A stretch of 64,000 bases of DNA, taken from Polychytrium aggregatum (lineage: Eukaryota > Chytridiomycota > Chytridiomycetes > Polychytriales). Below are positions 38,272 to 61,602 of the stretch, in pieces. Location: NCBI RefSeq assembly GCF_025602895.1, contig NW_026516311.1:93342-157341 (forward strand). The letters are read 5' to 3'. The number at the start of each line of letters is the position of its first letter. Within the stretch, counting starts at the first letter, position 1. The notes beneath the pieces are model-generated. The model did not search any database. It saw nothing but the letters and a program-made list of their open reading frames with translations, and was not told where the DNA came from. The translations under genes were made by a program, and so were the position numbers.

Positions 38272-41200
38272 ATGCTTCATTCCTCCGGAAACAAAAAGGC
38301 CAAGCCGACCGGGACAGCCTCGGGCGCTGCCAGCGGCAGGACTCGGCAACAGCCCTCGCTAGCCTCTGTGCGTTCGTCCTTTCGTCAACAGCGTCTCGGG
38401 CAGGATGGAGCCCAGGGGCTCGATTCCTCTCTTGGTTTGAAAAAGGTAGTTCCATGGAGCCAGTTGAGCGATGGGCTGCTCTGAAGAATGACAGCAGCAC
38501 GATCGTCTTACACTCTGCTCCGATCCACATTCACCAGATTATCCAGGCCTCCCGAAGCACCGGTGCGAGCTTGCTTCTGTCATCCCATGAGCCGTGGGCT
38601 CGGCGATGCAGTGTTCGAAATCAAGCGAGGCCTTCATGTCGGGTGCAAGGTCGCTGCAATAGCCGGCTGTCTGATTATATGGTGCGCAACTCCTCCAGGT
38701 CGTCTCAATCTCTCGAACCAGTCCCTCACCTCGATTCCCGAGCAGGTTTTTTCCCGGGATGGCTCCGAGGACCATAAGCCCGTCGTCGACTACTCATTCG
38801 ACAGCCCCTCTTCGGATCCCTCATGGTGGGAGGTACGCGAGCACCTCATTTTTCAAAGAAAAAATCACTCTGCGCTAGCAATCACCTTGCTCGGCTTCAA
38901 CGCTCGCTGCTGTGAGAGAGGCTCACGGTGGCGGTGACTTTGCTGACGCATCGATCATCAGGAAGTCGAAATGACTCGGCTTATCATTGCCGACAACGAA
39001 ATCAACGCAATCGATCCCAGGATTGAATCCCTTGGAGCCCTGACTCTCTTCGATGTAGGATACAAGCGGGCGAAGCGTCATGAGTAGAGCTGTGGATGCC
39101 CATATAGATCGACCCGGTGCAGCTCAAGAGCATAACTCCAAGCACCTTCTTTCCCATGATAGGCACGCAACAATAGGCTCTCCTGTCTGCCCGCCGAAAT
39201 GGCTCAGCTCACTCAGCTGGTGATCGTCAATCTGGCCAACAATGCCTTGAGCGAGTTTCCTTCTTGTCTGCTCGGGGCTCCCTTGCAGGACCTTTCCCTA
39301 CTCGGCAATCAGATCAAGACCCTTCCGGATTCGATTGGCCAGCTTGTGCATCTCACCAACTTGGATCTCTCCCGCAACCGAATCGGCAAGCTCCCAGCCT
39401 CTGTCTCCGCCCTCATCAACCTCACCAAGCTCAACCTCTCGGAGAATGCCCTCGAATCGCTCGATGGAGTTCAGTTCTCTGGAATGAAGCTGCTCTCCGA
39501 TCTCGATCTTCACGACAACAACCTTGTGTCGTTTACAGATGGATCGACATCCCTGCCCTCGCTCGCGCGTCTCGATATCAGCGACAACAAAATTTCGCAC
39601 TTCTCCGAGCAAGCGCCCATGGATCTGCCGCAGCTTCGCGAGCTCTACCTTTGTAACAATAGAATGCACTCTGTGGGCCTGCTGCTTCGCACGTGTCTGT
39701 TCCTTGAGACCTTGGATCTTCGCGACAATGCCCTCACCGAAGTGCCAGCAGACGTCCTTGCCATGATGAATCTCAAACGCTTGGATTTCAGTAATAACTC
39801 AATTTCCAAGCTCCCGCCAGAGCTGGGTCTCCTCTCCAACCTGAACACCTTGGGCTTTTCCGGAAATCCCCTCAAAGGCGTTCCCACGGGTGGTACCAAG
39901 GCTATATTGGCGGTGGGTACAAAGTTGACTCTGCCTATATGGGGGGCCTCCAGATGCGGATATGATAGCATCTGCTCGTCCGCCATAGAGTCGAGCCCGT
40001 CTCTTTGCCAGACTTACAGCTCCTTGAACGTGCCGCCGATTATGCCCCTCCAAATTCCACGAGCGCCGGTCTTGTCGAACACGCTGACAGCAGCAACGGT
40101 TTTGCTGACTTTTGCATGTGCTTCTATCTTTCTCGATCATAAAGTTACTCAAGGGAAGAATAACCGGTAAGTATTTGAGCTGGACAGCAGCCGTCTCCAG
40201 GAGCGGCCCATAGATGAGCGCCACTTCACAGCATCTCAAAGGCGAGCCGAGGACCTGAGTCTGCAATACCATCGAGACGATGCTCTTTGCGTAGTATATA
40301 TTGACATTGCACTCCCGATCCGTTGTCCGTTTTTTTTTTTTCTTTCCAAAGCTGCCCCAGCGCAGGAGATGGCCTCGAGCGGTGCAGCAGACGAAGGAGC
40401 TTCGCTCGATGAGACCACGCGCAGTCGCCACCCATCAACCCAGAACCCAACCAACAAGTCGCTTGACTTTTCTTCCCGTCGATTGGAGAATCTGCCGCAG
40501 TCGCACATCGAGGATCTCTCTTTCCTCCCCGCCAATGTGATTCTCAGCCACAACTTGTTTTCCAGTGTCCCCGAGTCTTTGTCGATAGTTGCGGCGACGA
40601 TGACGACTCTTGTGATAACCCATTGCAAGATCACGACCTTGCCTGTGACCCGATTCCCTCTGCTGAAGGTTTGTACATATCAAATTAACTTCAATGCGCC
40701 TCGGTGCGACGGAATTATGTCCTGCGCCCATATTTTGATCTCACCAGCCAAGCTGTGCCTTGGTCGGTTGGTTGGTTGGTTGGTTGGTTGGTTGGTTGAC
40801 TGGTTGACTGATTTGCGCCACTCATTGAATATCTCGTTTTTCGATCCGACCACGTCGACAAGGACTTGAATCTATCGAACAACTTCATTACTGATATCGG
40901 CACCCTCTCGTCAAGCACCCTTCCCTCTCTGATTGAGCTCAATCTGAACAACAATCGCATCCGCCAACTGCCGCAGCACCCCATTGATCTTCCGCTCCTC
41001 ACCACGCTTCTGCTCTCGGGCAACGCCATCGAGTCTATCCATGTGTCTGCTCTCACGGCAGCACCTTTGCTTCAAGTTCTTGACTTGAGCAACAACAGCA
41101 TTTCCAGCGTCCCTCCCGAGCTTGGATTGGTTCGCAGTCTCAAGCGACTTGTTCTGGACGGCAACACCTTTAAGGTTCCCCGTCGGGCCATCCTTGACAA

Positions 41201-41624: not shown

Positions 41625-44600
41625 TTAGGCAACAGTGTCGACCCAGACTCTCCAAGGACCACCACAAGTTGTCTGGCTGGGACCACCGGGACAAGGAGTC
41701 GAGCACTGGCTGCTGCTCACAACTGTGCCAAAGGTTCCTTGGCCATCGCCTCCAGCGCCGCCTGGGGTGGCCAGACTGTTGCCGCAGTAGCACTCTCCTC
41801 CATACTCAACACCGTAGTACCTGGGAAGCAGCGGCGATGCCAGTTAGCGAGTTGTATCAAAGACTGGACCAGTGCCGCACACGCGGAGCATATCCGCGGA
41901 GGGCGGATATCAATACTCACTTGTACTGCGAGCACAGACTCTTGCAGGTGGCAAGGGTCATGGATCCATAGTCGACAGAGGCCTAGGGAGGTTGCAGTAT
42001 TAGATCGACACACGAGCCGACATGGGAAGGTTGATGAGCATTCCATGAAAGAGCCATGCAATGTAGGACAAAGCTGCTCGAGGTTTGGATACTTACTTTG
42101 TAGTTCAACACGCGCTGAGAGTTATCGACATAGCAGCCAGTAATTGACGGAGTAACAGTGTCTATCCAGACTCTCCATGGACCGCCGCAGGTCGTCTGGC
42201 TGGGACCACCGGGACAAGGAGTCGAGCACTGGCTGCTGCTCACAACTGTGCCAAAGGTTCCTTGGCCATCGCCTCCAGCGCCGCCTGGGGTGGCCAGACT
42301 GTTGCCGCAGTAGCACTCTCCTCCATACTCAACACCGTAGTACCTGGGAAGCAGCGGCGATGCCAGTTAGCGAGTTGTATCAAAGACTGGACCAGTGCCG
42401 CACACGCGGAGCATATCCGCGGAGGGCGGATATCAATACTCACTTGTACTGCGAGCACAGACTCTTGCAGGTGGCAAGGGTCATGGATCCATAGTCGACA
42501 GAGGCCTAGGGAGGTTGCAGTATTAGATCGACACACGAGCCGACATGGGAAGGTTGATGAGCATTCCATGAAAGAGCCATGCAATGTAGGACAAAGCTGC
42601 TCGAGGTTTGGATACTTACTTTGTAGTTCAACACGCGCTGAGAGTTATCGACATAGCAGCCAGTAATTGACGGAGTAACAGTGTCTATCCAGACTCTCCA
42701 TGGACCGCCGCAGGTCGTCTGGCTGGGACCACCGGGACAAGGAGTCGAGCACTGGCTGCTGCTCACAACTGTGCCAAAGGTTCCTTGGCCATCGCCTCCA
42801 GCGCCGCCTGGGGTGGCCAGACTGTTGCCGCAGTAGCACTCTCCTCCATACTCAACACCGTAGTACCTGGGAAGCAGCGGCGATGCCAGTTAGCGAATTG
42901 TATCGAGGGCTGGACCAGTGCCGCACACGCGGAGCATATCCGCGGAGGGCAGACACGTCGATACTCACTTGTACTGCGAGCACAGACTCTTGCAGGTGGC
43001 AAGGGTCATCGAACTGTAGTTGATCGATACCTGCAATCAAAGTGGTTAGAAACATAAGCTAATGGACGATTGGATAAGCTCATTTGCTCTTCTAACCTGG
43101 TTGGACAGGACACGGTTGGAGTTATCAACGTAGCATCCAGTGGCTGAAGTAGGAGTGGCGCTGGGAGTTGTTGCAGTTGTCGTGGTAGTTGGGGCAGTTG
43201 AAGAAACGGAATCGACCCAGACTCTCCAAGGACCACCACAAGTTGTCTGGCTGGGACCACCGGGACAAGGAGTCGAGCACTGGCTGCTGCTCACAACTGT
43301 GCCAAAGGTTCCTTGGCCATCGCCTCCAGCGCCGCCTGGGGTGGCCAGACTGTTGCCGCAGTAGCACTCTCCTCCATACTCAACACCGTAGTACCTGGGA
43401 AGCAGCGGCGACGTCAGTTAGCGAATTGTATCGAGGGCTGGACCAGTGCCGCACACGCGGAGCATATCCGCGGAGGGCGGATATCAATACTCACTTGTAC
43501 TGCGAGCACAGACTCTTGCAGGTGGCAAGGGTCATGGATCCATAGTCGACAGAGGCCTAGGGAGGTTGCAGTATTAGATCGACACACGAGCCGACATGGG
43601 AAGGTTGATGAGCATTCCATGAAAGAGCCATGCAATGTAGGACAAAGCTGCTCGAGGTTTGGATACTTACTTTGTAGTTCAACACGCGCTGAGAGTTATC
43701 GACGTAGCATCCGGCAGTAAAGCCCGAGTTGGGAGTCGTAACCGGGGCGATTGACATTCGCCAGGCGCCGCCGCACGTTTGAGCAGAGTTGCCGGCACAT
43801 GGGGTGTTGCACTGAGAGCTTGAGGCAGCGTTGACGCCGCTGACACCACCATCGCCGCCGGTACCGGTAACGATACTGTCGCCACAGTAGCACTCGTTTC
43901 CGTTTTCAACGCCAAAGTACCTGCCAGCGAAAGATTGGTAAGTATATCCGGGGCAATAGGTGCACACATGACGAAGCAAACGAAAGCGATACCAACTTGT
44001 TGCCGTTTTGACTGCAGAAAGCATTGCACTTGTCAACCGTCATGGCAGGATCGACCTGGTGAGTGAAAGATGGTTCAATCACGAAATGTCAGTGAGTGGT
44101 CGAGCTCAATCAGAACACGAGGGGTACATCCAATTATGAATAAGCAATTGCACTTACCGTGCTCTTGGCAGCCAGAACGCGAGACGGGCCATCAACAAAG
44201 CATCCAGGGATGGTTGGGGAGGCCGAGCAAGATGGCGGCAGATCAAAGGCATCAACAGCGCTGGTGGTGGCAGAATATCCCAAGCCACGCTTAGCAAATC
44301 CCTTCCAGAGGAGACACTGATTGGCGCCTTTGTTGTTCGTTTGGTCGGCCAGGAGGATCGCATTTCTTGCGTTGACAAAGTTTGGGTTACAAGGTTGATT
44401 CTTCAGGCCATCGATAACTAATTGGAACTGCAAAGATATACAACGAACCGAGTTGGCACAGCAGTGGTGGCGCTACACAGCAGATATAGAAGGCGCTCCA
44501 AATACAAGCGGCATCGAGGGGGCACATACAAATATGGTGTTGCCTTTGCCGCTGCTGTAAGCCTTGATATCCGACGACGTGCCGTACTGGTCAACGAGGT

Positions 44601-46543
44601 TCCAGTACACCTCGAGGAGGAGCGACGTCCAGATTTCACCAATCTTGTGCACTTCTTGATACACGCCAGTGAGCTTGTAAGTCGTAGGATTGGTGGTCAA
44701 CGAGGTCGAGTAGGGATAGGTGCGGATACCGTTCGGGCGATTGAAGGACCAGGCTCCGAGGGCATAGTTGGTGGCGCGAGTATCAGTTGGCTTGATGCTC
44801 ATGACGAGTGCGGCCATGTCACTCCAGCCCTCGCCAAGGCCCATTGAAGTGGTGGTGGTGAGGCAATTGGCAAGAGCGGAGCCGCCGGTGAGGCGATTCG
44901 ACACTCCGTGGAAGGTTTCGTGGACGACAATGTTGTTGTCCAACGCCTCGTCGCGTCTGGGGGTGGCCATGGTGCTCAAATAGATGTTAAGAATTCCAGA
45001 GGTACCGTCAGGAGGGGTGAAGAAGTTGGCTGGATTTACAAGCAACGGAAAGAGATGGGGCAGAAAGAGCGTTAGGATGTAAGGGGAATGGGGACTAAGC
45101 AGGGATGTCTCTGCGTGGGTCCGACAGAGGGGAGCCTCGTATACAACTATATCGGACCGCAGATCTAGTTACCGTTATTCGTCGAGCGGGAGTCTTGGAC
45201 ATTGGCAATGACAAAATCGCCGCCAGCGCCACCCTTTCCAAAGTTGTTGTTCTGGAAGTTTCCGAATGGCTCGGTAAAGCCGTAGAGATAGTAAACATCA
45301 TGCATGGAGTTGACGAGGTAGAACACATTCGTGACGGCGGCGTTGACTGACTGATACGGGTCTTGCGTCAAGTCGACAGGATAGTCGAAAACGTAGTTGG
45401 CGCTCGAAGGGCGGCTATGGGCAATCATGTCGGAGGGCAGGGAGCTGCCTTCGTGGTTGTCCTGAGCGTAAACGTTGTTCCCGGCCAGGGTAGGAGAGGA
45501 ACCGTTTCCAGCATCGTGCCAACCACCCGGGGAAGCAACGCGGTCGTAGGGATCCACAACAAGCGATCGTCCCGAGGTGATATCGATTTGGTTGACTGGA
45601 ACGACATTGTAGGAAGCGGCCGGTATGGCACGCTTGGCAAAGGACGACACCCAATCGCCGAGACCGAGGAGGCTTCCGTCAGCGACTGAGACGAAACCGT
45701 TCCACCAATGGTCGGCGAGCTGGTAAGAGATGTCCCACACCCTGACGTATTCGGTCGGGGTCTGGAAATATCCGAGCGAAAACTTGACTGGGGAGAGAGC
45801 TTGAGCAGCTCCATTAATGGTGCCGCTTTGACCATCGGCACTCGAATTGACCTTGAGAGTGGAGGTTGTGAGGTTGACGTTGATATATTGGGCAAAATGG
45901 ACGAGGGCTTCGGTAATGTTGAGAGACGAAGCGCGACGGGTCAGGGTGGTGACGTTTTTTTCGGAGCTACCAAAGGTCGAGCCAAGTGATATCACGTTTC
46001 CGGCAGCGTCGAGGTTGACGTTTGCGGCAGCGTTGACGACCGGGAGGCCGTTGACAAGTTGGACGGCGTACACATGGGTAATCTGGTTATGGGGATCGGT
46101 GGCACTGGAATGGCGAAGAGATGAGAACACAGACTCGCTGAAGGCCATCGGTGGCCCCGACATGCCACGTTTCGGCATGAGACGCCAGGACTGGTCGAGA
46201 CATGGCGGAGGTTCACGAACACGCACCTTCCAATCAACTGGTATTGGGTGGAGTTGACACCCAGGGTCGTCTGGATGGCATCTTTGGCGCTAGAGTCGAG
46301 CTGACTGGAGTCAAGAGGGACAAGCGAATCCGTAGCGGGCTGCGATGGGAAGTATTCGGTCACATTGGGCCAGTGGACTTTGGGGTCGTCGACCGAGGGG
46401 ACGTCGTTGCTGGGCAGCACAGCCGCAGCGATTCCCGTGGCCGAGGGGGCGGGCGGAGGAGCAGAGCACTTGGCAGCAGCAAGTCCGGCTGCCGAGGCAA
46501 GCAGGGCGAGACTGCCAAGGGTGGTTTTGGTTGCGAGGACCAT
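41625..46543 (-). CDS. Secreted fungalysin-type (M36) metalloprotease with five C-terminal WSC domains
   Basis: The start at 46543 gives [25 protein letters not shown], a signal peptide. The propeptide (FTP-like) follows, with [20 protein letters not shown] and [14 protein letters not shown]. The mature region has [40 protein letters not shown] and [12 protein letters not shown]. The zinc site is [16 protein letters not shown] (HExxH with Tyr of the usual HEYTH replaced by Thr-Phe), and the third ligand is in [30 protein letters not shown] closes the catalytic domain. Five WSC modules follow, from about 44220 down to 41640. They open [22 protein letters not shown] or [11 protein letters not shown] and contain [26 protein letters not shown] and [13 protein letters not shown] Thr/Ser-rich linker ([20 protein letters not shown]) separates the second and third. 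It ends WVDTVA-stop at 41625-41627. WSC modules bind fungal wall glycans, so the enzyme may be held at the wall. Introns within the WSC units are repeated with them. Confidence 0.9.
41676..42894. repeat. 523-bp tandem duplication of a complete WSC exon-intron unit
   Basis: Two full units, 41676-42198 and 42199-42721, read as identical to me except for a few changes at the left edge before 41676. A third copy matches from 42722 to about 42894 and then diverges. The unit includes two introns, which are identical as well. A related unit at about 43242-43700 shares the same exons and the intron at 43557-43669. Confidence 0.88.
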
Positions 46544-46876
46544 GGTCGACGGCGGACCCAGCGGCGACAGGGAGACGAAGGATGGCGGTCCGCTGGCCAG
46601 CAGCGAAGGGTGCGGCGACAACAGGTGTATTTAGGGGCGAGCAGAGGCAGCGCACGCGAATGGGCTGCGCGGACACGGAAGGCTCGATTTGGGCAGGACC
46701 AGCGCGACGCGGACGCGCGGCCGACACAGACACTGTGGGGTGGGGCAGCGCCTCCGACGCGGCTGTGGCGGACGCGCTGCCGGCCAATCGGATGCGCAGG
46801 GGATGTGTTTAGACGCAAATACGCGGGGCGGAGCGCGCAGCCGGCTGCGTGGGATCTGCTGACCCAAACCCGGTCC
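46544..46876. promoter_or_regulatory. Divergent spacer fungalysin / TIR-NACHT-WD40
   Basis: These 333 G/C-rich bases lie between the two divergent starts. No tandem repeat, TATA box or operator is recognisable. If the NLR starts at its second Met (46979) the spacer is 102 bases longer. Confidence 0.4.
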
Positions 46877-49800
46877 ATGGCCTCGGCAGGCGACGAAGCG
46901 CTGCTTGTTTGTGGCCGCGAACGAATCGGCCTCGGCCTTGGTCAGCCCGGGCATCCGAAACGCAACCAAGCATCCGAGATGGAGCAACCCCGGATCCAGA
47001 CATCCAGCGCTGAGTCTGCTGCTCCGCACGACGGCGCCGGACGACAGTCGCTGCAGACGCCCGTGGAGCTCGCCCGGTCGGCCTCAGGCGGCGACGAGCG
47101 GGAGTACCAGTTCCCAAGGTTCACAGATAACTGGGTATGTGCGGCAGGCTTTGCCCATCACGACATTTTCATCAGGTGCGTTCGACAGGAGCACTCGATA
47201 GGAGACGATCAGGGCGTGCTGCATCGTGGCCAGCAGCTCAAGCATTTGACCCTTTCGTCTCTCGATGGCCGAAGCTATCGTGTGGCTACCGATTTCACCG
47301 CTGCCGGCGAACTCCACTCAACGCTGTGTGTCACGACAGGGCAGGCCCAAATCCATACGTACCTGGACCGGCGCTGCCTTGAAGACGGACAGCCATGGGA
47401 AGAGGGCTTTCTGAATGGTCTCACAAACTCCAGCGTCGTTGTAATTCTGCTCTCAGAGAAGGGGATGGAGCGAACCAAGCGCGCAGACATCAAGCCGGAC
47501 AATCAACTTCTGGAGGTGGGGCCCGCTGGACATCGTTTCGGTCAGCAATGGAACCGCATCGACCCTTACCACTTGCCTTTCCACCCATGAGACTAGATCG
47601 AACTGGCCCTGAAGCAGATGAAGAAGACCCAGAGCACCCGCTCGCCCGTCCAGATCCTGCCGATCCTCATCAAATCCAAAGTGCTGATCGGTGGCACCAC
47701 ATATATCCGTGACTGGTTCCCAAACACAAACGACTTTCCTGACAAGATCCACTGCCATTCCTCGAGCCCATCCAAACGAGGCGAAATTGATCCTCCGCTT
47801 ACCATCCGACAAACTTTGTCTGAATTGCTACAGCTTCAGGCTTTGATTGCGGCCGACGACTATGCCGTCACGAAGTAGGTAACACCCTTGAGCATCTACT
47901 GGCGAAATGGTTTCATAGAAGCGAGTGTCTAATGGCCACGCTTGCTGTCGATTTAGACTTGCTCCGCATATACTTCAGCACGTCCACAAAAATGGTTTGG
48001 GATCCGAACATCAACCGGGGCACCCGATACCAACACCTATCCGACTTACCGCCGAACATGACTCGCTCCTGCGATCCCTCCTCGATCCAGTCGACTCCTC
48101 TTCCGACAGAAGGGCACTCGAGGATCTGTATGTCGAGGGCACTCGCCAGTGGCTGTTCGATCAAACCACCGACTGGGTCAACCAGGATACCACCGACACT
48201 GTCCTGTGGGTCAATGCCGTTGCTGGAGTGGGCAAATCTGTTGCTGCTGCCCAGATCGCCAACATCCTCACAGCCAGCAACCAACTGGTATCGGCGCTGT
48301 TCCTCAAGTACAACGACACCCGCAAGAGCGATCCACGAGTGGTGCTGAACACCATCGCATACGGTCTGTGCAAGTGGTACTCTCCAATCGGCCGCAAGCT
48401 GCTCGATGCTGGCCACACCAAGGACAGTCTCGACAAGATGAGCATCCCCGATCTGTTCAAGGCCGTGATTGCCGATCCACTCGAAGCCATCGGCGAATAC
48501 AGACCCAAGGGATCGGTGATGGTCCTGGTGGATGCACTCGACGAGTGCTCTCCGCGCGACCAGCTGCTCAGTCTGCTTGCCTGGCGCTTCGTCGAACTGA
48601 ACAGGACCCGTCCGTGGCTCAAGCTGCTGCTGACATCCCGACCCGAGGACGACATCAAGGCAGCATTCGATGGAGTCCCGACCAAGACAATCGAACCCTC
48701 GAGCGAGGAGAACATCCGTGACCTCGAGGTGTTCATCCGCCACCGACTGCGAGTGCACGACACTCTCAGTGACTCGGATCGCACCGAGGCAGTCGCCATC
48801 CTGCTGGACCAGTCCAAGACATTCGTGTGGATCAACCTACTCCTCAACACCGTCGATGCAGCATCCAGAGACGGCCCAGTGACACTCGCCACGATCAAGG
48901 ACATCAACGACAGCGCCGCCGACGGCGGCCAGCTGTACCACAAGACATTCGCCAAGATCCACTCGCAGTCGAGCCACCCGGCCGAGCTGGTCACGGTGGT
49001 GTCGGCGATCGCCACGGCCCAGTCGATCCTGACCCCACAGATCATCGCCCATGTGTTTGGACTCGAGATCGGCGTCGTTCGCGAGTGTCTCAAGAGCCTC
49101 AGTCTGGTCCTCGATCCTGGCGCCAATAGATTGGGTCCCCGAGGCAGCCAGTCCACCAACACCGAAGTCAAGTTCAACCACAAGTCGGTGGCGGACTATC
49201 TCCTCGGCGACGCATCGGCTGGCTATCCGTGGCATGTGTCGGACTCGTTCCACACGATGTTTGCCAAGGGATGTCTCGGCGTGATCCTCTCGCACGAGCC
49301 AGTGATCAACATCTGCGAGATCTTCGACTTTCACGACAAGATCCCAGACCTCGAGGACAGGGTCGCAGCCAAGATCACACCGTCGCTGCGATACAGCGTC
49401 GCCCACTGGATCACACACTTTGTGTGGTGTGTGGAAGGAGTGGCCGAGTCGAGTCCGGTGTGGCAGTCGGCCAAGATGGTCGATGTGGCAGCGGTGCTCA
49501 CTCTGTTCGTCAAGACGCATGTGTTCTTCTGGCTCGAGTGTGGGTCGCTCACACATGTGGTCAAGCCGATCATCGAGCAACTGGCTGTGCTGCGAGGAGT
49601 GGTCGCCAAGGCACCCAGCACCATCGTCGACGACACCACGAAGGAACTGGTCAAGGACACGTATCGATTCATCCGCGAGTTTGCCGATCCAATCATCAAG
49701 AGTGCACCACAGGTGTACAACTCGGGGTTTGCATTCACACCGAAGGAGACGGCGATCTACAAGACATATGCCGACCAGCTCGAGGACAAGATCCCGTTCT

Positions 49801-51452
49801 TGGTCACAGCCGGACCGAGGCCCACCTGGAATTCTTGTGTTTCCACTATCCAAGTCGATGGTTGGGTCAACTCCGTTGCACTGGCTCCTGATCAGCAATT
49901 CATCGTTTCCGGTACAGACGGCCCCAATGTTGTCATATGGGACGCTACAACAAGCCAACGGAGCCAAACTCTCATAGGGCACAGCACATGCATCATGGCC
50001 GTGGCTGTAGCTCCGGATGGTCAGACCATTGCCTCTGGATCCATTGATGGCCAAGTCCGATTGTGGACGCCAAGCGGACAATTGAAAGTTGTGCTCGACG
50101 GACATCAAAAGTCCGTCAATGCACTCCACTTCTTGGCCGATGGACAAACAATCATTTCGGGATCAAGTGATAGCTCCATCCGGCTCTGGGACAGCTCGAC
50201 TGGAGCCTGGAAGCGCACCCTTACCGGCCACACTGAGTGCGTCTGGTCAGTTGCGGTATCAGCCGACAATGACACAGCGGTTTCGGCATCAAGTGATGGT
50301 ACAATTCGAAAATGGAGGACTTCGATTGGAAACGAGAGTCTTGTAATCCGCGAGGATAAAGAGCGATTTTGGGCCGTTACAATATCGTACGACAATAGCG
50401 TTATCGTGTCGGGATCGAGCAGCAAGTCCATCAAGGTTTGGAGCGGTATAACTGGAGACATGATTCGCACCATGTCGAGCTACACTGACGGTGTAACTTC
50501 AATATGCGTTGACATCGATAAAGGAATTGTTGTCTCAGGTCACTGGGACGCCTGCATACGAGTTTGGGACTTGAAAAGCGGACGACAGAAGCTTGCACTC
50601 CGAGGACATGTTGACAGAATCAGCTGCGTAACAATGTCGGCTGATGGAAACACGATATTGTCAGCATCATGGGATGGAACAATCAAGCTCTGGCTACCGG
50701 TCCCGCACGAAGTTGATGATTATGAAGATTCGGCTCACTCCGACACTGTCCAGTCAATTTCCGTGTCCCCAGACGGTCTCCTCGTCGCCACTGGATCAAA
50801 AGATTGTTCGGTCAAGCTATGGGACGGAGTGACGGGCAAATTGAAAAGCACGCTTGAAGGACACACCGGAGGAGTAACCTCCGTTTTGATTTCACCGAAT
50901 GGGCAGGTCGTTTCAGGCTCCTGGGATACAACCATCAAGATCTGGGAGTCAGCCACAGGTCGACTAGTGCAGACGCTAGAAGGACATGAATATCCGGTTG
51001 GAATGCTGCTCTACCAAGACGGAATCGGATTGGAATCGATCGATTGGAATGGTATTTCGATATGTTGGGTTCCTAAACATGGCCGGTTTCTCAGGAGTGA
51101 AGGCTTTTCAACTGAGATTATCAGACCAACGGCATTCTCCTTGCTCGAAAAGTGGAAACAGATTGATGATGCGCCGTCAATGCAATGGCTCTCGCACGAC
51201 CATCATATGATATACATCCCAGGCTACTTGTATGGAATAAGTATTTCAAATCGATTCGATTCTTTGTGTACGGCCGAGCGACGCCTGGCAACGATATGTG
51301 TAAGTACTGTCCCAGCATTGGGGAGGGGGAGGAAAGGCTGGGTTCTGATGAATAATAGATATTTGGGTCAATTAGCCAATATACATGGACAGCGCCAATA
51401 CAAGGTTTTGGACAGCGTATTCCCATCAAAATTTGAGCGGTTTCTCCAATAG
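46877..51452 (+). CDS. TIR-NACHT-WD40 protein (NLR/STAND receptor)
   Basis: Exons 46877-47175, 47275-47515, 47597-47874 and 47957-51452 sum to 4314 nt, an uninterrupted 1437-residue protein. Residues ~92-270 are a TIR domain. It has HHDIFI|SYRVATD across the first intron, then IHTYLDRRCLEDGQPWEEGF and LTNSSVVVILLSEKG. The Glu of PWEEGF (142/143) sits where TIR NADases have their catalytic Glu. A linker follows, then NACHT with Walker A NAVAGVGKS (~360-367), Walker B MVLVDALDECSP (~461-472) and LLLTSRPEDD. The domain ends near residue 900. About nine WD40 repeats follow (904-1314), for example GHSTCIMAVAVAPDGQTIAS and SGSSDSSIRLWDSSTGAWKR. A non-WD tail follows. Known STAND logic would have WD40 sense a ligand, NACHT oligomerise, and TIR act, possibly by NAD hydrolysis; that is inference. 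An in-frame Met lies at 46979. A strong donor GTAAGT (51301) with an acceptor near 51374 could give another C-terminus ending just past 51452. Confidence 0.88.
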
Positions 51453-52662
51453 CAGTGTGTCAAGTTGAATTGGAAGTTGAATCGTCGGACATTAGCCAAA
51501 TTTCGACAATAGTGATGACTGGACCTCATGAACAGCTTGGAGAGGAGCAGCGCTCCACCAGGAAAAGCATCAGTGCCAAATTCAATGCATAAGCGCAAGA
51601 TGCACTGGTGTGACACCTGAGTCTCAAAAAACCTTCAACCTTGAATGGAAACTTATCAAATGGAACGAAAGGCGGACGAATGCGCCGGTATTTCATTCAC
51701 AATGATGGTGAAGAATCGATACAGGGGCAACAGAAGTGACCGGTATATCAAGATTAGAGATGGAGGTTTACGCAAGTCCCTAAGGTTGAATAGATGGATA
51801 AGTGGAAATACCGCCTGTGTTACGGACGCGGGCCATGATGTGGTTTGGGCGCAGAACATGGTCTTGCCACTCACTGACGGTGAGAGTCTCAATGGCCTTG
51901 ACCTGCTGGATCATGCACGAGAATAGTTCATTCAATGCCTTTATTTGATCACGGCGCGATCCATCGCGGCGCGTGTCCGTGGCCTATTCCGTGGCCGAGC
52001 TCGCCGATATGATAGATTAAACCGTAGAAGTAATAGTAGAACAGCCCAGGGTCGGAGGAAAAGCCCACTCAGTGAAACATTTATGAAAGAAATATCATCG
52101 CTCGCTCGTTCCCTTAACTTTGCCTCTTGCTCCTTGCTCCATATCCGTACCCTTGTCTCAACTCCCAGGCCATGTTCCTGCCAACCCACCTCAATGAAAG
52201 TGTAAAACGAGAGGTAATGGCAATTATAATGCGCATGGCCAACCCAAGAGATCGGGGGAGTGGAATTGGAGTGAAGTTGAAGGAGAACAAACAGTGCAAG
52301 CTGCGTTTGCTCGCTCCTTGCTCCTTCGCCTGTGTTCAGCGCCGTCGTTCTGGACCACAAGGGGGACTCGCCTGTGTGACCGGCTCTGACAAAGGGACCT
52401 GCCGTCGCCTCGGCTGCGCTCTGGCTCGTCGGTCCAGGCTGGTGCTGCGCACTCTGTCTTGCGAGCGCCCCTCTCGTCCTCGCCGCCTCGCGGCTCCTCG
52501 CTCGCGACGAGGAGCGCTCTCTCCAGACCGTCCCTCGCGAGATGCGTCTCTCCCTTCGTGTCGGTCTCGGTCCTGGCTGTTGCGACTTCATGACTTCAAA
52601 TTTTTTTCATCGGCACCCCCCAGCGGCTTGTCACCCCGAATCTCGATTTTGCATGGCAAGAG
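51453..52662. other. Spacer NLR / Plavaka transposon, includes the transposon's 5' flank
   Basis: There is no recognisable protein. A 93-residue plus frame (51645-51926) and a long minus frame (51941-52591) lack domains; the latter mirrors a C/T-rich plus strand at about 52090-52560. The transposon's left terminus must lie here, but I could not identify its inverted repeat. Confidence 0.35.
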
Positions 52663-55600
52663 ATGAATAATCGGCCCAATATTAGCCGACCTCCGCCTGC
52701 CTCCGGGCTTCCACCCTCTTCATCTGACGCTTCATACCGTCCGTTGCCTCGGCCCCCGTCACAATTCCTGCCGAGCCCTCACGGCCCGGTTTCATCCTCG
52801 GGGCATCCTCATCTTCGCCATGCTCCGTCTACAGATGGGCGTGGATACCCGCCCCCGCCTCCTCCCTGGTACCAATATGCTGACTGTCCGTCTGGGTCAA
52901 TCCCAAGCCAATATTCGGCGACGTTGCCACAGTCGACTCCCTACAGCTCGTATCAACTTCCAAGCGTCCCTTGTCAGCCGCATTCCAGACAGCCGCCAGT
53001 CCATCCGCCAGAGACTCAATATATCGGTGATGCTTGGCCCCGAGCTCATCAGCATGGCCTTCACTACCAATATCCTGGGACCGTACCACGTCCTGCGAGC
53101 GACGGTTCTCAGCTCCCCTCTCATTCGCCAAACCCTATCCTGGACCAGGATCTTCTCGCTGGTCCGTCTCAGGCTTCCACAGATGTGGCAGTCGGAACTT
53201 CATCCTTTCGTCGCCTTGCGCCAAAGCCGGTGAACCTTCCGCCTCCAGAACCACCCCTTCGCTCGAAAAGAGCCTCAAAATCGAGATTTTGTCGTTGCAA
53301 CCTATGCCGAATCAATCCGGAAGGGGGTCTCATGATCTCGGCAGCCTCCTTCTATGATCATGCGCGAAACTATGGATACCCCGATGGCGAAAATCCAATC
53401 AAATCTCGCCGTCAGAAGCCATCCGTCGCCAGAAGCATAGCGCCTTTGACGCAAGATCCGCCAATTGTATCGGCTGCCTCAGATTCCGGTGGCCCTTCTC
53501 TCATGGACGAACACATATCCATCCAGGCATCCGACCCATCGTCAGCGGGAGGATCCACAGCTGTTCCTTGCACTAATCCAACTCAATCTTCCCGACGAAA
53601 CCCTCAATCTCCAAATGTTATCGGTCTGTTGAATCCGCTTCCCCGCTCTCTCGTGATTCATTGAACAGCAGCCGCTCACACTCTCCACGATCATCCCCTC
53701 AGACCTCAATTCACCTAGTCCAGAGCCTCACTTGGGTATGATTATACAGCTTTCATCGATCTAGTCAGCATCAGATGTAACAAAGACATTTCGTGGCTTC
53801 AACTACTGAGCTTTACCAGCTTCGTCATTTCCAGGGGATATGGATTGGACTGACTCACATGAGGGAAGGATTGGTTCCCCACCACCTCACAACGCGGGCA
53901 CAGATGAAGGACACTCCGAAGTATCGTCTCTTGATTTGGACGCTCTGGCCGATGAATATGACCTTGATTCGCCAGACGAAGACGCCCCGGTTAATCCCAA
54001 TGGGTAAGCGATTCATCCTTGTGCCGATCCTGGTGTACGACCACCAATATGCTGACGCTGGTATGCCACCTCCAAATCCCCTCAATAAATGGTCAGCCAA
54101 GTGCCCAGCTTTGATGACTCAGAGAACACCGACAATCTGGAGAACCTGGACCACCCTAGCGACTCAACCGACGATGAAGAGGTCATTGGACTGACTCATC
54201 CTGTTGGTCCAGGATACTTTGAAAGCTACCTCAGAGACCCAGATAGCCATTCAGATCAATCATCCGATTCAGAAGCTGAAGAGAATCTTGGGAATATCCC
54301 AAGGTTACTGCCAGGTTGATAGCCACGTTTCGATCCACACGTTCGACCGTAATGCCATTGAAGTTAACTTATTGGCATTCCAATCGGATCTAATCTGACA
54401 CAATCAATCGTTCGGGTCCGAAATTCTTCCAGAATCGACTGCCCTCGGCTCGAGTGATTCGCCTGAAGACGGTGAGTATAACTGGTTAACAAGGTGGTAA
54501 ACAAGCCTACTGACTCTGTTTCTCTCCACAGAAATCGATCAGATATCTGCCATGCTCCTCGACATCAAGTTTGAGTACAAAGTCTCAGATGCAGTTATGA
54601 AAGCTCTCTTTCGAGGAATTGGGCTCTATTCTGGTCAAATTATCCCCAAGATGAAAAGCTATGAGCATTCTATCGCACAACTCGAGGGAATGTCCAAGCA
54701 AAATATCACCTTCTTCAAGACTTGTGAAAGAGGCTGCGTCGTTCACAGTCGAACCAAGAGGACGTGCACGGCATGTCAACACCGTGATTCTCTGAGAAAA
54801 CGAAAGAATGTCCCTGAACAAGTGGCAGCACCATCACGCAATACTCGCCGTCGCATAAGGCCATTAATTAATAACGGGCCTACTCCTTCACATCCAAGTC
54901 CCCACCTCAGAAGCAGCCAGAATAGCGGCAGTTCACAACCCATCCCTCCCAATAATAATTCTACTGTGGGTCACATGCCGCCTGATTCCCCAGATGAGAC
55001 AATTGCCAACGCTGGAAGTATTGCTCCGCACCCGGCGATTGAAGAAGTCCATATACCGGAGTCTGGCTCAGTACTTCAATCAACTGAACTCGCCGACCCG
55101 GCTCGACAACATGAAAGGAGAGAACCCAAGTTTGGAAAGTATGCCTACTTCCACTTGATTCCCCGACTGCAGGAGATGTTCCTTCATCCAGAAGCAGTCG
55201 ATGAGCTCATGTATAGAGCCAACCGTAGACCGACCCCAGGCAAGCACTGTTGCTCTGTGGTTGAATATCGGGTGGACAACAAACTGACCTCAATCATCCC
55301 TGTAATTCAGATGTACAAAGCGATATTTTTGACGGAAAGCACTACAAATACCTCCGAAAGCGAAAATTCTTTTCCAGACCAACAGACATTGCGCTCGGAC
55401 TGACACTGGATGGATTTCAGATATCCAAGAGGTAAAGCATTGTAATCGAGTCGCTTGCACATTCATTTTGTGTCTAACATTTGGTCACTCTAGAAATGGC
55501 AGGCAATCGCGGGTGTTTGCCATAATCAACTACAACCTGCGTCCCGAAATCCGAATGAAGGAAGAAAATCTGATCAAGGTTGGGATCACTCCCGGGCTGT

Positions 55601-57699
55601 CCTCTCCAAAAGACTTGGAATCCTTCCTGAAGCCTTTATATGAAGAACTAAGTCAGCTCGAGAGAGGCAAGTATTCGCCGATGGCCATACCAGAAAGATG
55701 CACCGGAAATTAACATGTCCTGGCGACATTAGGAGTCGAGTCCGTTATTCTCCGCCTGGATGGTGTCTATGAAAAGTTCACCCTGAACGCCCATGTCATA
55801 TGTTGCACCGGGGATCTTCCAGCGATCGCCAAGATATCTATGATTTCGGGACATACTGCAAAGAGTGGCTGCCGATTCTGTCACATAAAAGGCAGGTACT
55901 GTCGAGGTATTTACTATTACGAGGAAACGCTTCCATCGCGGAGAACAAAGCGAAGTTTCAAACGGACCTGGAGCCGACTCAGCCGAGCAAACTCAAAGAA
56001 GCGCAAAGAAATCATCACTACCACAGGTACTACGGAGTGTTGTCCCACCTGATTGGAGATGAACTTGAAATTAACCACCTGTCTCAATAATACTGCAGGA
56101 ATCAATGGCTGTCCTGGTCTATGTCGCCTGAAAACTATTGACCCAAGTGTCTGCTTTCCAATCGACCTGATGCACCTGATGGCAAGAATCAGCTACATCA
56201 TGGTTTCCATCTGGATTGGTGAGACGACAATTCCCAAGGCGTCGACACTCAACCAAGTAGATATGAAGGCCAAGCTCCAGCACGCGGACCGATTGATGGG
56301 AAATATTGATATCCCGACTGGGTTTGGTCCCATGCCTCGACCCATTTTCAGCGACTGGAAGACCTACAAGACCGAGGAATGGCAAAATTGGATAATAGCC
56401 TACTCCATGCCCTTGCTACACAGTGTCGGAGTCCCCGAAGTACATATGTAGGTAGAAATGCAGATCCGACGTTTTCTACGAACCCAGGACTCACGATTCT
56501 CTCAGTCAGGGGTGGGGCTATTTTGTCGACGCAGTCAGACTCCTGCTGCTGAAAAGCCTCGATCAAAACCAAAGAACCATGATTTCTATTCTCTTGACAA
56601 AATTTTACAAGTACTACACCAGGTAAGTCAGCTCTACATGGAGAATATGAACACCAGTCACTCACTGCGGCCGCATCGATTATTCGCACTCACATTTCCT
56701 CGTTTCCCAGAACGCTGGCTTGCTTGCCTGAGTCCCTCAGTCCGGCGTCTCCGGGGAGTGAAGCCGACAACTCAGGACTGAAGCTCATGAAAATGTATAT
56801 CCATCTTCTTCTTCACATTCCGCTTTGTATTCAGTATTTCGGGCCAATGTACAGCTACTGGCAGTTTCCGATGGAGCGACTTGGAGGATCGATCATGCGA
56901 TCGATCAAGTCCCGATCGAAACCCATTGAAAATCTGGCTCGCCAACAGATAGTCCGGGAGGCGCTCAGAGGAATCGAAAAATTCAACACAAAACGACCCT
57001 ACTTTGCTGTAAAATCTGTGGCCCTTCAGTTGACGAAAAGGCACGAGCAAAGGGTGTCATCCGAGGTAGCCTCCCAGAACGGAGTCCCAAAGCACTCTTT
57101 GACGGGAAGAAAGGAGATCAGCAGATTGAGTGAAACGGAAATGTGTAAACTGAAAGCGGCGTATCTGAAAACCCTTATCTGGGGCTCGGGCCCTACGCCT
57201 TTGAGCTCACTGGAAAGTTTCAATGACTCATGGATTGCAGCCTCCCCAACCATCACTATCTATCACACATTCCAGCACAATACTATGGAGATGCATAGGT
57301 TTTGTCACGATCGCCCAAATGGTCGTCGCAGTAACTGCTGGGTGAAGGTACGAATCTCGAGCACCCTCCATACCTTACGAGGCAAACTGCTGACCGTCCC
57401 CTTCACAGGTCTTATTCAGTTCTCCGCAGACCACTCGAGAAGGCCAAATTCATCCCCTTAGATATTATCGAGTGGCCTTTTTCTTCACCCATACCTTTTG
57501 CGGGATAACTTCGTATTGGGTGTGTTGCGCTGTTCCCAAATCTGTCCCCGCGAATCGTGGATACGATCGGCATCCAGTGGCCAGAACATTCCGCTTCGAT
57601 GGATTTGACGCCACCCAAGCCAAGCGGATATTTATTCCTCTTCACGAGATTGACTCAGCAGTCGGCGTTCTCTGTGTTGGCGAAGGTAGGCGTGGATGA
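52663..57699 (+). mobile_element. Plavaka-type (CACTA superfamily) transposon: Tnp2-family transposase gene
   Basis: A multi-exon gene whose product cuts and moves a CACTA-like DNA element. Exon 1 (52663 to ~53620) is Pro/Ser-rich and ends with the zinc-finger-like FCRCNLCRINPEGGLMISAA with SFYDHARNYG. Acidic linker exons follow (DMDWTDSHEG..., FDDSENTDNLENLD). The next exon (about 54530-55240) has IDQISAMLLDIKFEYKVSDA and a CERGCVVHSRTKRTCTACQ cysteine motif. The Tnp2 core comes next: DIFDGKHYKYLRKRKFFSRP with TDIALGLTLDGFQ, VFAIINYNLRPEIRMKEENL, ITPGLSSPKDLESFLKPLYE, VICCTGDLPAIAKISMISGH with CRFCHIKGR, and CFPIDLMHLMARISYIM. It then runs on to MYIHLLLHIPLCIQYFGPMY with SYWQFPMERLGGSIMRSIKS and RIFIPLHEIDSAVGVL. 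Across the exons I translated the frames stay open with good splice sites, so the gene may be intact. Element ends were not found. Confidence 0.82.
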
Positions 57700-58051
57700 C
57701 CCTATACTGCGCTTTCGGAGCAAATGACGTCTCCTCCCTAACTCTATCATCATGACAGTCATATACATATTGGACAAGGGCGACATGTCTGTGTATATTA
57801 CTCCCTGGACACTGCCTGCTGCAGGGCGGTGAGTCTGAACAGAATCCTGACGATGATATCCTGACTTTCATAAAAATACACTCCAAGTCACGATCGGCTT
57901 TTTTTCTTATTCAGCGGATCCCGCAGCCGGCTCTTGGGGGTGTGGGAGCGGATGGGCAGATTGAGAGACAATCATGCGTTCGAATGTGGTTCGATTGCCT
58001 CCCCCCTCCTTCGCTGGGCTGACCAGGGCCTCCCACGCGCAAGAGGGAGGC
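57700..58051. other. Transposon 3' flank, no gene
   Basis: It holds the expected right end of the Plavaka element. A small inverted repeat GCCTCCC ... GGGAGGC lies at about 58029-58051 directly before the LTR-like block. No coding sequence is recognised. Confidence 0.35.
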
Positions 58052-59401
58052 TGTTAGGGACGGACGCGGGAGCAGGGCGAGGCAAAGACAAGAGCGTGGG
58101 AACCGGGAGTAGTCAAGGTCTAGAGGAGTGATGATCTTATATTGGAGTAGTGAGAAGATAATTCACTTGATGAGCTTTCTACCCACGTCCTGAGCCCGTC
58201 TATTTATACCTCAGCCGTCTAGTCTATCTGATCTCCGAGCTCAATCGGTGACAAGCCACGCCGTGATCAAGGAAGGGAATGAATGAATTGACTAAGCTAA
58301 CGAGCTGCGCAGAAAAGTCCCGAACGTTGTCGGCCATCCTTTGCATAGGTAACATGACTAACTGCCCCGCCACACCCCAATCATGACCTGCACCCCAAAC
58401 ACGCGATCCCTGAACCCTTGTACTTTTGGGCAAGTTCTAATAGAGGCGATCTCCTTCCACCCGATCATCACAATCAAGTCCGAGGTAAGTGTTTGGCGAC
58501 CAGCGAGCTAACTGATCTTTTCCTTTTCTATATTTCTCTATTTGTTCCATATCTTCTCATTCCAGGTTCGGTCCAGCTTCATCGAGGTATGTGTCCAGAA
58601 TTTGGTCTTGGATTCTGCAGGGTGAAGGAGGGGGGGGGGAGCTAACTTCTCAAAACTTTTCGATGCCCCTCATTCTCTGCGCAGGCACCTGAGTGGTAAG
58701 TTTATTTGTTGACAATAACGCTCCTGTCGCGCACCATGATTGTAAAGATGCTCCGTTAACGTTTGCCGCAGCTTCGGTCCTTCACCAGATATTCGAAGTC
58801 AGGTAAGTCTGCTCCGCACGGAAATAGCCAGTGCCAAATGCCCAGCTCGACTGTTGGTCGTTGTGGGTTATTCGTCCAGTAGCGATAGTCGCCTCTGAAA
58901 GCAGCTTGCTCGATATTGAGGCCAGCGACAGACTCTATGATGCTGTCATTGGATATTCGTGCACCCCATCTGAATCACGGAGCTTGCTGAATACACACTG
59001 CCCGATCGTTGCTTTCAACCCGATTCATCGCAAGAGCTGGCTCGACGGCCACAGGGTGAAAAAACCCCTCCCCTGGTCGTCTGGTGTCATGAACCATGAC
59101 GTATGCGGGGTGGGGGGTGCTACTCTCATTCCCCAACCGAAGCTGATTGGGGGATGGCCCTCGCTGCGCTCAAGGAATTCTAGATGCATGGCCACGATCT
59201 AGACACGCCCGAACCTTCCAAGGTAGAACACGCTTTGCAGAACCTTCTTTGCAGCGTTGCCCCTTTTCTAGATATTTGTCAGCAGAGGATACCAGCCGGT
59301 TATATACCCGACCTTTGGCCGTGCTGTATACCTCGTCAGTGAAGTATTCAATAAATCACCACTCTATCTTGTTTTCCGTGTCTCCGATCCTCCTGACCTA
59401 C
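58052..59401 (+). mobile_element. LTR-like block A (degenerate retrotransposon LTR)
   Basis: It begins TGTTAG and shares with block B the ordered landmarks AGTGATGATC, AGATAATTCACT, a TATA-like GTCTATTTATAC (about 58198-58209), then GA.AAGCCAC and TGATCA. An AATAAA is at about 59347. A 123-residue open frame (58831-59202) has no known domain. The right boundary was set at the TGTTAG that starts block B and is uncertain. Confidence 0.5.
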
Positions 59402-60377
59402 TGTTAGAAACAAGGCAGAGACGGGGCAAGGAATGGCTTAGGAGAGTGATGATCGCGTGTATTGTGAGATAATTCACTGAGGGGATATTGTCATCGGGGG
59501 CGCCTGTCTATTTATACTCTATACTGTCGTTGAGTACCCGCCAAACGATAAGCCACATCTTTGATCATGCCCCGATCAAATTAAGATAATTAAAGAATAT
59601 GAATCGATTTTCCATGCCTTTCCTCGCACTTCCCTCAAGTCAGGTGTTCATTCGCTTCAGTGCCAACATGGCTGTCCCGAATCACGTTGTTCGAACACGG
59701 CGTCGCGGTCGGTCGATTCATAAAACCTGCCAGCCCCGTTCCTCCCAGTAACCCCGACTAGTTCTCACGCCCCTCTACCCTGCCCAGCCGGCTCTGTTCC
59801 TGTTTCTCACATCTGGGATGGTGCTGGGGGGGGGAGGGCGAGGAGTGCAGCAAACGGGGGGCAGGGGCGGCAAAGCGAGAGGGTCCGCCGAGAGCAGCAG
59901 AGCGAGGATGCCGGAGGGAGAACGACATGGCGAGAGAGCCGGGAGGGAGGGAGCTGCCGCGGTTTCCCATCTAGATGCTGATTGGCTGGCAGCAACCCGG
60001 AACAAAGGGCTTGTTCGGTCGGAATCTTGTGTAACGAAACACGTGTGTTTGTGCCCAGTGCCCGCCGTCGTGAGTACAAGCTGCAATTGGAGAGGGGAGG
60101 ATAATTGTAAGTGTTCAAACCGCACTTTCCGGCGGCTGGAACCACGTGTGACACGCTTCCCGATCCAGCACACCTGTCCGCGATTGGGTTACACGAGTGC
60201 GCCTGTCCAGCTCTGTTGATTGTTCCCACAGCCATGTACCTTGAGAGACCCAATAAATAAATGACTTCCCTCGCCCGGCTCGTCCCAGGCGTGTGAATCT
60301 CTCACAATCTTCCTGTCCAGTCTCCACGACCCCGTTTTCGCTCCACGACCCTGATTTCGCAGACCCAGCCCATAACA
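59402..60377 (+). mobile_element. LTR-like block B (LTR of a Ty3/gypsy-type element)
   Basis: It is bounded by TGTTA (59402-59406) and TAACA (60373-60377), matching inverted LTR ends. It contains GTCTATTTATAC (about 59508-59519) and AATAAATAAA (about 60250). TGGTAGCATCGGA, a plausible tRNA primer-binding site, follows immediately and overlaps the gag start codon. It shares the landmark blocks of block A. Confidence 0.6.
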
Positions 60378-61178
60378 TGGTAGCATCGGATATAAGTAGC
60401 TCCGACGACCACGTCCGTGCCTTCGGGCTATTCTCTTTGCAGGAGCAGGTCTCTGTTCTCACCGCCCTTCGAAGCAGAATCGGCGTTGCTACACCCCTGC
60501 GCCATCGCCCCTGCCCCTGTGACGACTCCGTCCAGTCGCCACATGTCGCGAGGGCTGGGTCGTGCACGCGAGCGAGGAGACTCCCCATCACCACCCCCAC
60601 TGCGGCTTGCTGGGTTCCCACGATTAATAAAGGGCGATGCCCCAGCACCGGAAGGGCCCAGCAAGACGAGTCTTCTGTTTATCTCGCCTTCCTGTTCGTC
60701 CGTTGGGTCCACGTCCCTGAATATACATCTGTTTCGCCCGTACTCGCCGTTGCCTGTTACCCGCCTATCCCGTGCCTCGATAGTCCCATGTTCCGTCCCC
60801 CATTCGTTACAACCCCTGCCTCCTCAGTGAAGCCCAAGATCCCCCGAACCCTTCACCGGTGTTCGGAAGGCTGGAGTAGTCGAGGAGTTCATCCTCTCGA
60901 AGAACGAGTACATCGACTACTACCAGCTCGACGATGACGTTGCCGTCCGCAACATCAACATGAACCTCCGTGGCACCGCCAAGTCCTGGTGGCGCTTCTA
61001 CGCCCAGAGGTACCCCGGGGAGGTAGCCAGCATGACCCCCGAGATTCTCACTAGCCTAATCCGTGAGAACTTCGTTCCAGTGACGGCCACCAGGCGCCTC
61101 CTGGACGAACTCGACAACCTGAGACAGACCAGGTCTGTCACAGATCTCTCTGCCCGTCAGGCTGCACCGTCGCACTTG
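60377..61178 (+). pseudogene. Decayed Ty3/gypsy gag, interrupted by a later LTR
   Basis: It opens MVASD like the intact gag downstream but loses frame within the first ~60 residues. From about 60835 a recognisable retrotransposon gag domain reappears in a different frame: VVEEFILSKNEYIDYYQLDD, MNLRGTAKSWWRFYAQRYPG and RRLLDELDNLRQTRSVTDLS. It then stops matching at about 61160-61178, where the next LTR begins. It is non-functional and has no pol. Confidence 0.72.
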
Positions 61179-61602
61179 TGTCACTGTTTGCGTCGCACAC
61201 TTTCCTTTTCCTTTGTCCTGCGACGCCTTTCCTTTTTCCTTGCTCTCATGTTGCACACGCCGCTCTGTGTTCCCTGCATTTGTCATCGACCATGCATTAG
61301 TCAGACGCCGTGTCACCCGCATTTGTCAGCCACCGAGCATTTGTCAGACTTTCACATGTTTCTCCGGTTAGCCGTTGCTGCCTGGCTGCTGTCCCGCCGC
61401 CTCCGCTGCTTCGCCCCCGCTGCGGCAGGCTTCGCCTCCGGGACCGCCAGACAGATAAATAGCCCGCCTTCACCCGCTCATGTTTCTGGTCATCACCTTC
61501 GACCCCAGACACACTTGACTATAGATCCTAGCCTCGCTAAGATCAATAAAAACCCTTCTCTATCTTCTTCTTTTGACTTCCTCTTGATCCCGTGATCTGA
61601 CA
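61179..61602 (+). mobile_element. 5' LTR of the second Ty3/gypsy element
   Basis: The LTR is inferred from TGTCA at 61179-61183 and TGACA at 61598-61602, a matching inverted pair. It contains ACAGATAAATAG (about 61451) as a TATA-like box and CAATAAAAACCC (about 61544) as a poly(A) signal. The sequence TGGTAGCATCGGA after it is the same candidate primer-binding site as at block B. The other LTR is outside the window. Confidence 0.55.

Follow-up and report, generated by a model that had tools for sequence, protein, structure and literature searches.

The DNA analysed here, a 64,000-nucleotide stretch of contig NW_026516311.1 that we call the window, comes from the chytrid fungus Polychytrium aggregatum (Polychytriales). 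Its element of interest is a gene on the + strand that is predicted to encode a 1437-amino-acid protein in which a TIR domain is followed by a NACHT domain and by WD40 repeats. An earlier note on this DNA, made from its letters alone, had proposed such a receptor in an early fungus, encoded by four exons that join without a frame break; the host is indeed a chytrid, and all three junctions are GT-AG and in frame, yielding a coding sequence of 4314 nt. With intron 1 fixed, donor/acceptor pairs a few bases around junctions 2 and 3 were tried, and only this combination led to a single stop codon. The start codon at 46877 is a prediction; the same frame is open upstream to 46181. The features of the gene are listed here, with paralogous loci elsewhere in the genome given L numbers:

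46877-47175, + strand: exon 1, an N-terminal stretch without a Pfam match and the start of the TIR domain (HHDIFIS)
47176-47274, + strand: intron 1, 99 nt, GT-AG, phase 2, between IS and YR; same position and phase in paralogs
47275-47515, + strand: exon 2, the TIR core; its last codon (47513-47515) is Glu180, aligned to the SARM1 catalytic Glu
47516-47596, + strand: intron 2, 81 nt, GT-AG, phase 0, between LLE and IELAL; same position and phase in paralogs
47597-47874, + strand: exon 3, the C-terminal part of the TIR domain, then a linker
47875-47956, + strand: intron 3, 82 nt, GT-AG, phase 2; not present as such in L048 and L049, which have an uninterrupted frame here
47957-51452, + strand: exon 4, the NACHT domain (NPHP3_N), a linker and the WD40 repeats, up to the stop codon
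48066-49839, + strand: shared NACHT module, about 89-94% DNA identity to paralogs that resemble the window gene much less in TIR and WD40; ends vary by paralog
48138-48641, + strand: NPHP3_N (NACHT) match, with AGVGKS at 48222-48239 and LVDALDEC at 48525-48548, which we take to be Walker A and Walker B, and LLLTSRPE at 48624-48647
49842-51008, + strand: WD40 repeats, nine Pfam stretches, limits approximate

A Pfam scan of exon 4, for which 25 of 47 families were listed, matched NPHP3_N (PF24883, a NACHT profile named after nephrocystin 3) over the full length of the profile at 95.4 bits (cut-off 24.8) and WD40 (PF00400) in nine stretches at 236.8 bits, just as the earlier description of a NACHT with both Walker motifs and about nine WD40 repeats would have it. 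The full NPHP3_N match, together with AGVGKS and LVDALDEC, identifies a NACHT-type P-loop NTPase; NB-ARC is not among the 25 families listed for this exon. Within residues 1-420, TIR_2 (PF13676) scores 31.8 bits (cut-off 28) at residues 97-217, across introns 1 and 2; HET was not found in these residues at E 1 or better, TIR_2 being found instead, and SAM had no match there. An N-terminal effector domain and C-terminal repeats thus lie within the same protein, which is the layout of STAND proteins (signal transduction ATPases with numerous domains) and NLRs (NOD-like receptors), and the C-terminal repeats are WD40 rather than leucine-rich repeats (LRRs). The WD40 repeats of the window gene are degenerate, with 0.19 identity at 42 residues; within seven paralogs this value is 0.31-0.67. 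Repeats that are highly alike within the gene occur in L054, L056 and L057 (0.56-0.67), and likewise in protein P0001 of Chytriomyces hyalinus (0.67).

With residues 1-273 as a single sequence, a search of the PDB gave no matches. A profile of 11 TIRs (set A1, all 11 of which match TIR_2 at E 0.1 or better) has SARM1 as its top PDB match (E 1.3e-6), and in this alignment Glu180, invariant among the 11, falls on the catalytic Glu of SARM1. The nearest solved structures to the profile are nicotinamide adenine dinucleotide (NAD) hydrolases; SARM1 is also nearest by structure, using the model of a relative, and a SARM1-type catalytic Glu is retained in 24 of 26 distinct TIRs. The comparison supports the view that the window TIR looks catalytic. 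An unlikely alternative is that it is a non-catalytic scaffold of the MyD88 kind, with other TIR proteins of the genome recruited as effectors: the typed list does hold 29 TIR matches without an NPHP3_N neighbour, including an intronless TIR plus P-loop class, but both the retention of the Glu and the NAD-hydrolase neighbours of the profile argue against a purely structural role.

The gene has many relatives in its own genome. NPHP3_N matched 106 times genome-wide, and after five matches had been dropped as second pieces of loci, 101 loci were left; in at least 95 of these, a TIR match on the same strand lies no more than 3 kb upstream. For the 90 strongest loci, spread over 64 contigs, the corresponding figure is at least 88, where about 0.003 upstream TIRs per locus would be expected by chance. 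The two strong loci without one are C358:268194 and C320:284; the latter lies at a contig end, and its counterpart, C90:271554, has a TIR match. These counts are lower bounds in which alleles are counted separately. Sixty-seven of the 90 sit in frames of at least 1000 residues, and one frame (L051) runs through N. The NACHT profile PF05729 has 15 matches in the genome, several at the same loci as NPHP3_N, and NB-ARC has six. By these profile counts, TIR-NACHT-WD40 is the dominant predicted NPHP3_N-type NLR of P. aggregatum, and the earlier reading of the window gene is right in kind and too small in scope: it had described a lone gene, not an expanded family with probable NACHT exchange. Three RNA-polymerase loci are expected per haploid genome; the assembly holds six, and its contigs C12 and C112 are colinear, so that both haplotypes are present. 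Because the strong loci number about 90 and both haplotypes are included, we arrive at a rough figure of 45 TIR-NACHT-WD40 genes per haploid set, based on the RNA-polymerase loci and the C12/C112 colinearity and not on a pairing of all loci.

Other effector and adaptor domains were searched for in the same genome. SAM_2 gave eight matches, all of them, by visual comparison, more than 3 kb from any typed TIR place; the HET profile gave none, as it did in control genomes, and hence no absence is inferred. There is also a second TIR class (L006, L010, L012, L013 and L016, the last recognised from its match to protein P0029 alone), in which an intronless TIR is followed in frame by a P-loop stretch, GMGGMGKS or GMGGIGKS, that by eye has an NB-ARC look. 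P0029 is BJ171DRAFT_582080 of P. aggregatum and is identical (100%) to L010, on contig C101, over 259 residues. Though this protein was present in the collection, no P. aggregatum member of the TIR-NACHT-WD40 family appeared by name in protein searches with the TIR or the NACHT region; the family is perhaps missing from the annotation, maybe through repeat masking, or from the protein collection, and may have escaped surveys based on annotated proteins.

The NACHT module behaves differently from the rest of the gene. The allele on contig C112 shows no base change in the introns, exons 1-3 or 150 bp of upstream sequence, and its indels are one of 1 nt in intron 1 and one of 3 nt in exon 4. In exon 4 it carries 49 substitutions (21 synonymous, 28 not), of which 48 fall within 48317-49602 and the remaining one lies at 51065; over the colinear stretch 41701-48100 the two haplotypes differ at 19 of 6400 bases. 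When the window gene is aligned with L048, bins of the TIR and WD40 parts are 43-55% alike in DNA, and the region from 48077 to 49676 is 88-97% alike. Fourfold-degenerate identity between the two is 19% in the TIR (43 sites), 90% in the NACHT (260) and 27% in the WD40 part (100), where composition alone predicts 27, 32 and 26%; these sites are saturated in TIR and WD40. Against L052 and L054-L057 the values are 42-52, 87-91 and 22-28% (L053, whose main frame has no P-loop, was left out of the NACHT comparison). In seven paralogs the alike stretch starts between 48045 and 48114, and in six of them it ends between 49798 and 49839; in the seventh, L051 on contig C179, it ends at 49701, where N begins. 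These limits fall close to the domain edges, namely 48066, where a conserved block that precedes the NPHP3_N match begins, and about 49842, where the WD40 part begins. Variants of both window alleles recur, in mosaic order, in other copies. Taken together, TIR and WD40 parts with saturated fourfold sites, a NACHT in which 90% of such sites are identical, and breakpoints close to the domain limits best match what ectopic gene conversion of this module would produce.

Positions 2502-7501 of L051 consist of exactly 5000 N inside a family member. Such a run points to gaps, and it could be argued, given so many and such similar copies, that the NACHT identity arose in the assembling or polishing of repeated genes. 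We judge this improbable: the copies are 89-94% alike rather than identical, the open frames mentioned above are kept, and seven paralogs from different contigs all lose the similarity close to the same domain limits.

We consider it probable that the window gene belongs to an expanded family of TIR-NACHT-WD40 STAND receptors with a putative NAD-cleaving output, the NACHT of which is homogenised by ectopic conversion. Several observations weigh against this. The TIR assignment of the earlier note stands with TIR_2, but the classical TIR profile PF01582 reaches 11.7 bits in residues 1-420, under its cut-off of 21.3; the TIR is decayed at the Glu in two family loci, L030 and L033/L051; and the structure model shows not the window TIR but a relative that has 41% identity to about half of the query. 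As for conversion, L049 and L050 have a fourfold identity of just 50% to the window NACHT, so that not all copies take part, and the L026/L027 pair differs chiefly in TIR exon 2 and upstream of the TIR rather than within the NACHT. In L052-L057 the TIR is alike as well, at 87-98% of amino acids, so that exchange may sometimes extend to the TIR; the WD40 parts of the non-allelic copies in this group are 50-60% identical in amino acids. L054 and L055, taken as alleles from sequence alone, have WD40 proteins that are 100% identical, with 94% in the NACHT and 96% in the TIR.

We hypothesize the following sequence of events for such a receptor. At rest, the NACHT would be kept shut by the WD40 part until a ligand opens it, the likeliest sources of that ligand being a virus, a bacterium or a parasite of the fungus; nucleotide exchange would then drive oligomerisation. 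The TIR domains, once clustered, would build an active site with Glu180 and cleave NAD, so that the output would be a signalling nucleotide or, alternatively, loss of NAD with death of the cell. Ectopic conversion, meanwhile, would keep the NACHT alike over much of the family while the sensors diverge.

The same output might instead be triggered by a fungal self/non-self difference, that is, by allorecognition as with HET-E and HET-D of Podospora. The NACHT-WD40 core does resemble that of the Podospora HET genes, where, in the accessible text, the WD40 part sets specificity (PMC12222747), and the window gene does have allelic differences. However, the WD40 parts of its two alleles are nearly identical (one substitution), and the sensor would be the same in both; nor did the analysis find positive evidence for self/non-self recognition. 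We know of no hyphal fusion in chytrids, which also weighs against this trigger, and we give it a small probability. We also tentatively entertain a wider picture, in which P. aggregatum has TIR-NLR immunity on a plant-like scale, built on NACHT-WD40: conversion would keep the NACHT interchangeable and let receptors co-assemble, while sensors and partly TIRs diversify. This picture, possible rather than probable in our estimation, would turn the Podospora situation round, since there it is the repeats of the sensor that undergo exchange.

Intron positions in paralogs were obtained with a custom spliced aligner: introns recur between IS and YR in phase 2 and between LLE and IELAL in phase 0, though their lengths vary, and the third is in phase 2 in most copies that have three introns. 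In cleanly aligning paralogs the introns measure 67 to 144, 64 to 132 and 82 to 154 nt (not counted are copies that lack introns or are decayed, and L032, L034, L036, L040 and L049/L035, for which the aligner gave additional or wrongly placed introns). A single open frame, of 1665 residues in L048 and 1523 in L049, covers the TIR's C-terminal half, NACHT and WD40 repeats. Because paralogs repeat the intron positions and phases and these two loci unite the domains, the splicing model is supported, and one gene with three domains is confirmed as the single consistent prediction. The notion of adjacent TIR and NACHT-WD40 genes, suggested by the three introns that set the parts apart, is scarcely credible and was rejected, given the single frames of L048 and L049, the fused Chytriomyces proteins in the database and a domain order that is constant in 88 of the 90 strongest loci.

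Around the gene, the earlier note had seen a transposon-rich segment. This holds in part: Ty3 capsid, gag and aspartic protease are matched at 60831-63198, and a DUF4218 match at 56598-57458 stays below its cut-off. No repeats of at least 60 bp were found in 46000-64000, where a short tandem array lies at 60322-60360, and no tRNA was found in the window. About 6.7 kb upstream of the receptor gene, an open frame at 39163-40170 (+ strand) has strong leucine-rich repeats (LRR_8, 109 bits). Four tandem copies of about 0.5 kb, 95-98% alike, lie at about 41638-43712 and occur on both haplotype contigs, and an M36 fungalysin peptidase gene (45168-46289, - strand; 146 bits) is divergent from the receptor gene, with a short gap between them.

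Relatives were sought among proteins with each region separately. The TIR region gave nine matches of 1095 candidates: three Chytriomyces proteins (best 47%), then a Blyttiomyces TIR plus NB-ARC protein, and five TIR_2 proteins with no NACHT listed (three kinase-linked, with LRR or kinase domains). Among the nearest TIR relatives outside chytrids are P0005, P0006, P0007 and P0008, from metagenome-type sources (jgi, lgn), in which TIR_2 is joined to a protein kinase domain and, in two cases, also to LRRs. The NACHT region gave 22 matches among 8000 candidates scored; the top three are from metagenomes (51-52%), with models starting near the NACHT, and Chytriomyces, other chytrids and Basidiomycota are among those that follow. 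This architecture is shared by other chytrids: Chytriomyces P0001, P0002 and P0013 share the domain order of the window protein, TIR_2 and NPHP3_N are combined in Quaeritorhiza P0015 (TIR_2 72.5 bits) and Siphonaria P0017 (34.9 bits), and in Chytridium lagenaria P0016 a TIR half under the cut-off (14.8 bits) precedes NACHT and WD40. Residues 1-497 of P0013 (Chytriomyces sp. MP71) contain two SAM stretches (SAM_2, 32.8 bits) and then a TIR of 28.4 bits (cut-off 28), a SARM1-like SAM-SAM-TIR order on an NLR with a NACHT-WD40 part.

That TIR is rare in fungal NLRs, as the earlier note stated, agrees with the literature consulted, yet P. aggregatum is an exception: a TIR match lies upstream of NPHP3_N in at least 88 of the 90 strongest loci. 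The available portions of recent surveys report few or almost no fungal TIRs (PMC13142454, PMC10197012), the 2026 preprint among them (PMC13142454) giving almost zero, all from Rhizoclosmatium globosum. TIR in Chytridiomycota NLRs and a small group of fungal TIR-NLRs are on record in excerpts of PMC9815663 and PMC10197012, and a survey of 122 proteomes, ten from Chytridiomycota, has, in its accessible part, NLRs from one upward there and in Mucoromycota (PMC12258605). Within the open-licence literature, fungal TIR-NLRs are thus known as a kind, and the scale of the family and the NACHT exchange appear to be new. With a SARM1-type-Glu TIR at nearly every detected NPHP3_N locus, TIR-NLR signalling would rank as a main type of receptor for at least one early fungus; a zoosporic fungus would also become a system for asking what fungal NLRs detect. 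Module-wise homogenisation would further offer a natural experiment on which NLR parts must stay alike to work together.

Compared with known systems, the Chytridiomycota TIR-NLRs reported in the available texts are of the same phylum and the same protein kind as the window gene, but they are few, whereas the diploid assembly of P. aggregatum has about 90 strong loci. In Chytriomyces P0013 the two SAM stretches precede the TIR; in P. aggregatum no SAM match lies near the listed TIR loci. From amphioxus, an animal, TIR-NACHT and TIR-[NB-ARC]-WD40 genes are named in the accessible text of PMC2575513, the same kinds of fusion, likened here by description and not by sequence. The NWD/HNWD proteins of Podospora (HET-E, HET-D, HET-R) also place NACHT before WD40, and some P. 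aggregatum paralogs share their highly alike WD40 repeats, but they have a HET domain where P. aggregatum has TIR. Moreover, the Podospora WD40 repeats are described, in the part available to us, as kept alike by concerted evolution and exchanged (PMC12222747), whereas in P. aggregatum it is the NACHT that is shared, and the WD40 repeats of the window gene are degenerate. The family Glu aligns with the catalytic Glu of SARM1, although SARM1 has neither NACHT nor WD40. SARM1 is regulated by its ARM and SAM domains. Plant TIR-NB-ARC-LRR receptors, finally, likewise form a large family with an N-terminal TIR, a central STAND switch and a C-terminal repeat sensor; they use NB-ARC and LRR where the profile matches of the window protein are to an NPHP3_N-type NACHT and to WD40.

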